DNA from: a bacterium
Lineage (GTDB): Bacteria > UBP15 > UBA6099 > JAJRTR01
Length of the DNA: 19,881 bases
Assembly: GCA_024278215.1 (NCBI GenBank)
Contig: JAJRTR010000193.1
Span: 1-19,881 of the forward strand
Reading direction: 5' to 3'
Shown: piece after piece, positions 11,370 to 13,578 of the stretch
How positions within the stretch are numbered: position 1 is the first letter of the stretch
Layout of the letters: every line of letters begins with the position of its first letter
Made by a program: the position numbers and the translations under genes
The notes under the pieces: generated by a model
Seen by the model: only the letters and a program-made list of their open reading frames with translations
Told to the model about the DNA's origin: nothing
The model's database searches: none

Positions 11370-11666
11370 ATGAAAAAAAGAAAAGATATAAAGCCCATAT
11401 CAGGAATACTTGATACTCTTCGCAGTGAACTGAGGGTCGATGAGAATATAGAGCTTCACGCGTCGGTGCGTGATTGGGAAAGTATTGTCGGCCCACGGCT
11501 CAGCGCACACACGAAACCACTCCACATAAAGAATCGAATCCTGTTTGTAAATGCGGAAGGCGCAGTATGGCAGCAGGAAATACTATTTGCCAAAAGGCAG
11601 ATAATAATGAGAGTGAACGACCGGCTTGGTCGCAATCATGTAAGAGAAGTGAGGTTTTCCAATTGA
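11370..11666 (+). CDS. DUF721 / DciA-type helicase-loader-like protein
   Basis: The 98-residue protein has the DUF721 pattern: an N-terminal helix (ISGILDTLRSELRV), the conserved W..IVGPRLSAHTKP segment (about 35-50), a strand LHIKNRILFV, then AVWQQEILFAKRQIIMRVNDRLG. DciA proteins of this family act with replicative helicase DnaB in bacteria that lack DnaC or DnaI loaders. Its place after dnaA and dnaN supports a replication role. The ORF keeps only the KH-like domain; no long disordered tail is present, so it is a short version. The ATG at 11370 has a weak site (GACCGGGA-like) upstream. Confidence 0.85.
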   Translation: MKKRKDIKPISGILDTLRSELRVDENIELHASVRDWESIVGPRLSAHTKPLHIKNRILFVNAEGAVWQQEILFAKRQIIMRVNDRLGRNHVREVRFSN

Positions 11667-11827
11667 AGGTGTCGGCTGTCCGCAGGTTTGAAAAATCCGT
11701 GTCTTAAGGAAACCCCGGCATTATTTCAGACAATCCCGCCCATTATATGTACCCATAAACCGTGAAAAAAAAGAATGAAGAAGACAGGTGAAGCATTAAA
11801 AGAATATTAACAATTTTCAGAATACTT

Positions 11828-12235
11828 GTGTTGCAGAAAAGGATCGGGCGTGACGGAGGGAGCGCGTCTCTGTTGATCCCAGATTGCGCTGTGTCGAAAA
11901 AAACGGATATGAGCGCGGAAGAAATCGAGAAACTTGTAAACAGGACACTGAAAGCCGGTAGTCTTCTCGGAGGTTTGAACACATGTCTTACAAGGTCTGT
12001 TATACGATGCCGGCTTATGAGGGAAAACGGAATAGACGCACGAGTAATGCTGGGTCTGAACAAGGGCGATGAAGAACTTGCCGGTCATAGCTGGGTGGTG
12101 TGGCCCGGCGGACCGGACCACCCGCCGAATCCTGCCGATTATGACGACATACAGATGATTCCAACGCTTGAAAAACAACCAGGCTGGTCACCGGAATTTT
12201 CACAAAGAAACTCAAGGAAACAAGATAAAAAATAA
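11828..12235 (+). CDS. Orphan lasso-peptide B2-like (transglutaminase-like cysteine protease fold) protein
   Basis: The 135-residue product resembles the Transglut_core3/McjB C-terminal family that cleaves lasso-peptide leaders. The signature is GGLNTCLTRSVIRCRLMREN (Cys53), followed by GIDARVMLGLNKG and GHSWV (His87), i.e. the Cys and His of the catalytic triad in order and spacing. The third acidic residue is not at its usual place a few residues after His; Asp97 or the DYDD run may replace it. The start is uncertain: GTG 11828 lacks a clear ribosome-binding site, and the open frame extends back to 11792 without ATG. The ATG at 11908 is possible but would cut the N-terminal helix. No B1 (PqqD-like), C (asparagine-synthetase-like) or precursor gene was found. 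Role unknown. Confidence 0.7.
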   Translation: MLQKRIGRDGGSASLLIPDCAVSKKTDMSAEEIEKLVNRTLKAGSLLGGLNTCLTRSVIRCRLMRENGIDARVMLGLNKGDEELAGHSWVVWPGGPDHPPNPADYDDIQMIPTLEKQPGWSPEFSQRNSRKQDKK

Positions 12236-12296: not shown

Positions 12297-13448
12297 TTAT
12301 TTCCATACACCGGGTATGCTGTTGCCACATGAGGCGCAACGGCCGTCTTTGAGGTTATTTTTTGTGATCCTGTAGCCATATCTGCCGATGACGACATTGC
12401 CGCATTTCGGGCAGTATGTGCTCTCGGCCGGGTGGCCGGGCACGTTGCCGATATAAACATAATTCATGCCGTGTTCCATGCAGATATTCCGTGCTGTTTC
12501 GAGCATGCTAAGAGGTGTGGGCTGGAGGTTTTTCAACTTGTATGTGGGGTGGAAGCGGCTGAAGTGAAGGGGCACATCGGGCCCGACATTTTCCATCAGC
12601 CAGTCGGCCATTTCCCTGATCTCGCCGGGTTCGCCGTTGAGTGTCGGCACAAGCAGGTATACGAGTTCGAACCATATTCCCACATCTTTGAGCAATATAA
12701 GAGTATTCTTCACCGGTTCGAGGTGTCCGAGGCATGTTTTTGCATAATATTCTTCCGTGTGGGCCTTGTAATCGATCTTCACGGCATCGAGCACTTTGCA
12801 CAGAGCGCGCATTGGCTCCGGATTGATGTAGCCGTTGGAGATCATCACGCTGCGCACGCCCTCGCGTCTGCCCGCCACGGCGCAATCGTACATATATTTG
12901 TAGAATACCACCGGTTCGCCGTAAGTGTAGGCGATAGATTCGCTGCCGCTGCGGACAGCGTAGCCGGCGAGGGCGTCGGGTGTGAGATCGTAGCCACGGA
13001 CCTGTTCGGGTCTGACCTGAGAAATCTGCCAGTTCTGGCAGAACTTGCAGTCGAAGTTGCAGCCGGCCTCGGAGATCGAGAGCGCTTTCGTGCCGGGCAG
13101 GTAGTGGAACAGAGGTTTCTTCTCGATAGGGTCGACATTTGCCGAGCAGGGATGACCGTATGCGAGAGTGTAGTAGGTGCCGCCGTGGTTTTCCTTATTG
13201 CCGCAGAAACCGCGCTCGGTGTCGCCGACACGGCACTTTTTCGGGCAGATTTTACATTGGATCATTTTGTTGTCGAGTTTATCGTAGTAGGGCACTTCCA
13301 CAAGGGCTGTGTCGGAGCTGTCCGCCTGACGAGCCTGTGCGACCGGGGAAAAAACAGATGCGGCGAGCGAGCCCGCGCAGGCTGCAAACGGGAGCGCGGC
13401 ACCTGCCTTGATGCCGCCACTGATGATGGCTCTTCTGCTGAACTTCAT
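12297..13448 (-). CDS. amrS: AmmeMemoRadiSam-type radical SAM enzyme with Tat signal (AmrS-like)
   Basis: The start is the ATG at 13448, with GGAAG about 10 bases upstream; an upstream in-frame start would read through a repeat. The 383-residue protein begins MKFSRRAIISGG, a twin-arginine motif (Phe of the consensus replaced by Ile), then a hydrophobic stretch to about residue 38. Four cysteines at 65, 68, 72 and 82 form an N-terminal cluster. The radical SAM motif CNFDCKFC is at 130-137. A zinc-ribbon-like CxxC...CxxC closes the protein. This matches the family that occurs with AMMECR1 and Memo proteins, neither of which is in the window. Substrate is unknown. Position beside the Tat-signal DUF362 gene suggests a shared envelope role, which is inference. 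Confidence 0.9.
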   Translation of the reverse strand: MKFSRRAIISGGIKAGAALPFAACAGSLAASVFSPVAQARQADSSDTALVEVPYYDKLDNKMIQCKICPKKCRVGDTERGFCGNKENHGGTYYTLAYGHPCSANVDPIEKKPLFHYLPGTKALSISEAGCNFDCKFCQNWQISQVRPEQVRGYDLTPDALAGYAVRSGSESIAYTYGEPVVFYKYMYDCAVAGRREGVRSVMISNGYINPEPMRALCKVLDAVKIDYKAHTEEYYAKTCLGHLEPVKNTLILLKDVGIWFELVYLLVPTLNGEPGEIREMADWLMENVGPDVPLHFSRFHPTYKLKNLQPTPLSMLETARNICMEHGMNYVYIGNVPGHPAESTYCPKCGNVVIGRYGYRITKNNLKDGRCASCGNSIPGVWK

Positions 13449-13486
13449 ATTGATCCACTTCTTCCTAACCCGGCAAAGCCGGAACC

Positions 13487-13578
13487 AAACAGGCCGCATT
13501 TTCGTGCCCAAACAAATGCGGTTTGAGCACGGCACACGCACGGTCTACGGTTTGAGTACGGCACACAGAGTTTCATCT
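13487..13578. repeat. Dispersed hairpin repeat R1 with internal 29-bp duplication
   Basis: Starting AAACAGGCC and ending AGAGTTTCATCT, this copy matches 18582-18644 at 59 of 63 positions once a 29-bp insertion is removed. The insertion is a tandem duplication: CGGTTTGAGCACGGCACAC at 13519-13537 recurs as CGGTTTGAGTACGGCACAC at 13548-13566. CGTGCCCAAAC and GTTTGAGCACG form an 11-bp stem with one mismatch. It lies 38 bp upstream of the AmrS start codon. A CCGGC/GCCGG hairpin (13470-13482) sits just before it. Confidence 0.8.

Follow-up and report, generated by a model that had tools for sequence, protein, structure and literature searches.

A stand-alone lasso-type B2 peptidase homologue in an uncultured bacterial order and a putative cyclase-less branch of its family

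The B2 leader peptidases of lasso-peptide biosynthesis (MEROPS C96; PF13471/NF033537; the McjB, FusB2 and PadeB2 type) depend on an RRE and on a YxxPxL leader. In lasso leaders this motif spans positions -17 to -12 and a Thr stands at -2 (PMC10368454). HprK-like kinases and NTP transferases are found among their partners. RiPP proteases that are encoded outside their clusters are known, and the same review assigns the transglutaminase-like C96 group of peptidases to lasso peptides alone (PMC10885120). The databases call every protein of the B2 family lasso B2. RRE-Finder showed that, among discrete lasso-type RREs, roughly one in two is without a peptidase and a cyclase, and about 300 have a radical SAM enzyme nearby (PMC7470986).

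Three further systems bear on the locus described here. The phosphorylated peptide BsfA (Duan et al. 2023, PMC10368454) is a true lasso with a cyclase, in which an HprK-type kinase phosphorylates Ser3 and the residue at -2 is Ile. The linear polyphosphorylated peptides, or LPP (Popov et al. 2026, PMC13381572), are cyclase-less RiPPs with a discrete lasso-like RRE, a YxxPxL-type leader, a polysaccharide-locus setting and an HprK-like kinase that phosphorylates Ser3; the RRE, the kinase, an NTP transferase, an MsbA-like exporter and a SipW-like serine signal peptidase are encoded together, and no radical SAM enzyme is described. Finally, the SynChlorMet cassette (TIGR04248-TIGR04251) combines an HprK-like protein (ScmC), a PqqD protein (ScmD) and radical SAM enzymes (ScmE/ScmF).

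Here we describe a B2-type protein from an uncultured bacterial order. It resembles the lasso B2 peptidases in Cys/His motifs and, by prediction, in fold family, its branch of the family has the same HprK-like and NTP-transferase partners, and dependence on an RRE and a YxxPxL leader would be expected of it too. It differs in that its gene is an orphan, with no cyclase at its locus or at any fetched locus of its branch, in that its N-terminal region is shortened and its third catalytic residue is not conserved, and in that its expected substrate has Tyr at -2 where lasso precursors have Thr.

The gene and its product

The window, 19,881 nucleotides in length, is the whole of contig C171 in a 207-contig, 4.55-Mb assembly of 95% completeness (Table 1). 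The reading frame given in the first-pass annotation, 135 amino acids from a GTG at 11828 to a stop ending at 12235, was borne out, although homology found by profile matching with relatives reaches upstream of that GTG, to 11792. The frame contains no ATG, GTG or TTG between 11792 and 11828, and an ATT at 11795 lies four bases after an AGGTG (11786-11790); the true start may be this ATT or else lie beyond a frameshift. Within 11775-11827, an ATG at 11775 opens an 11-codon frame, MKKTGEALKEY, which is similar to the N-terminus of the relatives but differs in frame from the B2 gene, a possible sign of a frameshift or a sequence error.

Table 1. Coordinates of the features discussed (window positions unless a contig is named)
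Feature	Location	Strand	Basis or remark
B2-type (PF13471) stand-alone leader-peptidase-like protein	11828..12235	+	135 aa from GTG; PF13471/NF033537 matches; orthologues in order
In-frame N-terminal extension	11792..11827	+	match to the order's profile begins at 11792
Codon of predicted nucleophile Cys53 (NTCLTRS)	11984..11986	+	alignments; N-end of predicted helix 53-66
Codon of predicted catalytic His87 (AGHSW)	12086..12088	+	alignments; within predicted strand 84-92
Asp97, candidate third residue	12116..12118	+	alignments; conservation through the order fails
dciA (DUF721), upstream neighbour	11370..11666	+	PF05258 E 9e-20; absent beside orthologues
AmmeMemoRadiSam-system radical SAM enzyme, convergent neighbour, outside the finding	12297..13541	-	TIGR04337 E 5e-111
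RiPP-like precursor, 53 aa	G000:C175:28851-29009 (L060:6852-7010)	-	directly after radical SAM gene

By its sequence the product is a genuine PF13471/NF033537 (lasso B2) protein. As the first-pass annotation had proposed, it matches PF13471 (Transglut_core3) significantly and above the curated cut-off (E 3.6e-11; 43.4 bits against 26), and it also matches NCBIfam NF033537, lasso_biosyn_B2 (36.8 bits against 33). No other gene in the genome exceeds the PF13471 cut-off. The Cys (CLTRS) and His (GHSW) signature noted at the outset likewise held: Cys53 and His87 are invariant across a six-row alignment of the order, their motifs are aligned in 36 relatives, and the order retains NxCLxRS and RENGxDAR. 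The acidic member of the triad had been called displaced, and this was right in kind. Most linked relatives have Asp or Glu at His+12, a position taken from alignment only, and the order has a two-residue deletion there; Asp97 (His+10) aligns at the acid position in the window and in one other lineage, and a third lineage has Pro.

An AlphaFold2 model built from six sequences (pLDDT 67.6 overall, and about 80 for the greater part of residues 30-110) has a helix beginning at Cys53 and a strand containing His87, the expected papain/transglutaminase arrangement, at a confidence too low for geometry. Foldseek ranked transglutaminase 2 first, with a probability of 0.85 but an E of only 0.19 (no match had E below 0.001), and VIA gave Z of about 5 to transglutaminases and cysteine proteases; ribosomal rows among the Foldseek matches were set aside as noise. 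These results are consistent with a transglutaminase-like fold but are not proof of one. No relative was found by sequence in the PDB.

Each of the seven genomes of the order (UBP15-type MAGs, the window's included) contains an orthologue and a single PF13471 protein. The orthologues are 44-52% identical where complete; that of G002 is a fragment at a contig end, and that of G003 breaks in frame near residue 96 (L019:18594), its C-terminal part opening another contig (G003:C50:1-60), as could result from rearrangement, insertion or an assembly fault. Scanning contigs with a single sequence found nothing, and scanning them with an alignment recovered the orthologues together with one KSB1 member (L078, the KSB1 record). 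Among four close relatives dN/dS was 0.12-0.32, which indicates purifying selection and argues that the reading frame is not a product of chance. The gene was an orphan in all six readable loci. Its upstream neighbours in family f2 are a peptidase T-like gene and panE, the identity of both having been checked in G001, and a DUF1648 gene lies downstream where the contig allows. An NTP_transf_5 gene lies 2 kb from the B2 gene in G001 and is not conserved in the genus-mate G004.

Two branches of the B2 family

A search of 386 genomes gave a PF13471 match in 58. Around the small PF13471 members, the fetched neighbourhoods were then examined with custom profiles that represent PqqD, HprK-like, radical SAM, NTP_transf_5 and Asn-synthase genes. 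A maximum-likelihood tree of 36 B2-type sequences, including six from the order, was divided by a branch with 100/99 support. On one side an Asn-synthase (cyclase-type) gene was present in the fetched stretch for 11 of 14 rows. On the window's side the count was zero of 22, the order's six among them, several of the fetched contigs being short enough that a cyclase could lie beyond. Row L151, labelled 'I' in the tree, has no Asn-synthase gene in its own stretch; it is a close paralogue of L150. The stem branch of the order's clade is long (2.06 changes per column).

At twelve loci on the window's side, L078 included, the B2 gene is flanked by genes for PqqD, an HprK-like kinase and a radical SAM enzyme in varying combination. 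Most carry all three, and one (L112, on a 4.7-kb contig) carries the kinase only. Three further loci combine PqqD, HprK-like, B2 and NTP_transf_5 genes. The grouping of B2 with PqqD, HprK-like and radical SAM genes recurs in many bacterial families, and Pfam applied to one cassette returned Hpr_kinase_C, PqqD, Radical_SAM and Transglut_core3. The radical SAM enzyme of the main cassette forms a sharply separate family. It is present in 12 of the 386 genomes, and in nine of these 12 a PF13471 protein occurs as well, a co-occurrence that leans upward because the profile was built from B2-linked members. The SynChlorMet profiles (ScmC, ScmD and ScmE/F) gave weak matches, all far under their curated cut-offs, and the named SynChlorMet set is without a PF13471 protein, unlike the B2 cassettes.

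We scanned for short open reading frames with a Shine-Dalgarno-like start, a [YF]xxPxL motif and a Thr exactly at -2. This strict scan returned nine candidate precursors in 177 kb of cyclase-less loci and none in 224 kb of control loci, the mean for shuffled sequence being 0.4; a slightly widened scan also recovered lasso precursors in the cyclase loci. One candidate (MKKKVEKKKYSKPTVKKNEPLVNITFATAGVGAGAVPGSGGAAESAIG) adjoins the HprK gene in G046, another (MASRAEKNKSNNKDNKEKRKLKAFIEPKLTKQESLVKSTLFPGAAAPGAAAVGTS) lies between the B2 and HprK genes in G196, and G231, where genes for precursor, PqqD, HprK, radical SAM and B2 are adjacent, has four. Given the enrichment, these cassettes without a cyclase have the look of functional RiPP clusters. 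By the tree and the neighbourhoods, the B2 family appears to have a cyclase-less branch, mostly in RRE, HprK-like kinase and radical SAM cassettes, and the window protein falls in it. If that branch is real, a large share of lasso B2 names is wrong, a further RiPP kind that unites a radical SAM enzyme, a kinase and B2 has gone unnoticed, and some of the RREs reported without peptidase and cyclase or with radical SAM enzymes (PMC7470986) would be accounted for.

A lasso cluster hidden elsewhere in the window's genome was considered and rejected: its three full-length Asn-synthase genes begin MCGI, and no PqqD or B2 gene was seen in the stretch fetched around them.

A precursor locus throughout the order

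It had been noted at first that no RRE/B1 protein, cyclase or precursor was in view. This stands for the window, in which we found no PqqD, HprK, RiPP-type radical SAM, Asn-synthase or YxxPxL peptide, but not for the genome, in which a PqqD gene and a precursor lie on contig C175. In all seven genomes of the order a SPASM radical SAM gene comes directly after a PqqD gene, with a precursor at the locus; an HprK-like gene is present in the same locus in six, the contig of G005 ending first. In the window's genome the locus (about 26-30 kb on C175) adjoins polysaccharide export genes (Poly_export/SLBB, Wzz) and also has a B12-binding radical SAM gene, which was seen in this genome only.

The C175 precursor, MEKKKNCSQTGSADHFENGKKLFVKPTLTKYGTVKDVYSGPSCKAAMAKDADK, is preceded by a strong Shine-Dalgarno sequence (AAAAGGAGGTGCGGAATG). 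The precursor is single copy in every genome, is 37-53 amino acids long (37-42 in the relatives) and always keeps [YF]xKPxLT-YGT-KDVY-GPSC, with DK at the end. Comparison with the published lasso register (PMC10368454) places Y/F at -17, Pro at -14 and Leu at -12, as in BsfA, with Phe replacing Tyr in the window's genome. The core, in lasso numbering, begins Gly1-Pro2-Ser3-Cys4, and Ser3, the kinase target in BsfA, is invariant. All seven precursors have Tyr rather than Thr at -2, an altered residue for which the Ile of BsfA is a precedent. The residue at position 9 varies among Ala, Glu, Asn and Gly, and no acid is conserved at 7-9, so that a lasso ring is not expected. Two features of lasso biosynthesis, the Asp/Glu at core positions 7-9 as a conserved trait of the precursor and a B2-linked macrolactam cyclase (of which the window has none), were not found here.

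Full-length matches to the precursor were confined to the order in the 386-genome search. Weak matches outside it were to the leader only: two came from genuine lasso loci, and in G112 and G248 the match adjoins a radical SAM gene. In the latter pair (L188, L189) a short peptide, MTIK[KR]KYIKPVLTKYEKVRDVTTATVALEGTASAADCTLTRCTSEPPAIKG, adjoins the radical SAM gene, and neither genome has a PF13471 gene at E 1e-6.

No peptidase gene was recognised in the order's precursor locus, nor was a SipW-like gene in the fetched stretch of C175, and the NTP transferase of the window's genome is on a different contig. C175 holds an RRE, a radical SAM enzyme, an HprK-like protein and polysaccharide export genes rather than the LPP set. 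In place of the SipW-like serine peptidase of LPP the pathway would have a cysteine peptidase of the B2 type, and it would include a radical SAM enzyme of the SPASM type. A test of whether the radical SAM and HprK-like proteins of the order are orthologous to those of the cassettes gave no support, and cassette-type radical SAM was absent from the seven genomes. The occurrence of a single-copy, core-conserved precursor throughout an uncultured order suggests that the GPSC peptide has a cellular function (as a cofactor, in the envelope or as a signal) rather than that of an antibiotic.

A possible role in trans, and the alternatives

Since the window protein falls in a cyclase-less branch with RRE, kinase and radical SAM neighbours, and since the order has such a set without a peptidase, peptide maturation in trans is better supported than a housekeeping role, and the best reading of the sequences is a lasso-type peptidase that would operate within a non-lasso RiPP pathway. 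In the proposed mechanism the B2 protein would be a transglutaminase-fold cysteine peptidase. The PqqD-type RRE would bind the [YF]xKPxL motif of the short precursor and present the leader, and B2, by means of Cys53 and His87, would cut after leader residue -1 and before Gly1, yielding a core that begins GPSC. With RRE, SPASM radical SAM enzyme, HprK-like kinase and precursor encoded together at C175, the orphan B2 would act from a distance. The kinase would act on Ser3, as BsfK and LppK do on their peptides, and the radical SAM enzyme on Cys4 or a residue near it, Cys4 being a guess from its position.

We judge the chances to be about even that the orphan B2 removes the leader of the GPSC precursor in trans; the pairing, the cleavage site and the chemistry are what we infer. 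We hold more tentatively the full proposal of an order-wide, single-copy RiPP that is radical-SAM-modified, phosphorylated on Ser3, changed from Thr to Tyr at -2 and trimmed by a dedicated trans-acting B2, together with a second, cyclase-less B2 branch across phyla that is labelled 'lasso'. Several points count against action in trans. Seven genomes of one order have little power to reveal specific co-occurrence, the peptidase and precursor genes are unlinked in every one of them, and neither the radical SAM protein nor the HprK-like protein of the order is orthologous to its cassette counterpart. Moreover, Tyr stands at -2, the third catalytic residue varies within the order, and in some members the precursor of a second PqqD and radical SAM system offers an alternative substrate.

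An unlikely alternative is that B2 has left peptide maturation for a cellular role, whether as a small cysteine peptidase or amidase or as a transglutaminase-like protein without catalytic activity. The long stem branch, the shortened N-terminal region, the unstable third residue and the orphan state of the readable loci would all fit, but Cys, His, NxCLxRS and RENGxDAR are retained, and the order's RRE-radical SAM-kinase-precursor system would still be without a peptidase. We consider it rather improbable that B2 is the leader peptidase for another substrate, either a precursor not seen or that of the second system in the relatives (PqqD-radical SAM-NTP_transf_5, with precursor YSKPRIKSSSIKDTFLACGKC...). 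That system, with a YxKPxI leader, is present in G001, G003 and G005, and a relative of it in G002; it was not found in the window's genome, whereas B2 and the GPSC precursor are both present in all seven. Descent into a decayed remnant of a lasso cluster is very improbable: the protein is an orphan, short and lacks two residues near the active site, and its G003 relative is interrupted, but the orthologues throughout the order, the purifying selection and the position in the cyclase-less branch uphold the earlier view of a stand-alone protein outside a lasso cluster. Finally, the housekeeping partnership with dnaA-dnaN-DUF721 (dciA) that the first-pass annotation had suggested is scarcely credible, for although B2 lies 162 bases downstream of dciA on the same strand with no terminator seen between them, none of the window's other genes is beside the orthologue in the six relatives, and the proposed survey of homologues showed the dnaN linkage to be private to the window's genome.

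Other PqqD-containing sets were seen in the order. A second PqqD and radical SAM system is present in L066, L067, L068 and L169, with NTP_transf_5 in L066 and L067, and its precursor (YSKPRIKSSSIKDTFLACGKCGSGPV... or similar) has an ACGKC core. The window's genome has only two PqqD matches, one of them beside ATP-grasp-type genes: near 40.7 kb on contig C115 (L170, L061) a weak PqqD-like domain lies by ATP-grasp-like and diaminopimelate-decarboxylase-like genes, possibly another peptide-modifying set.
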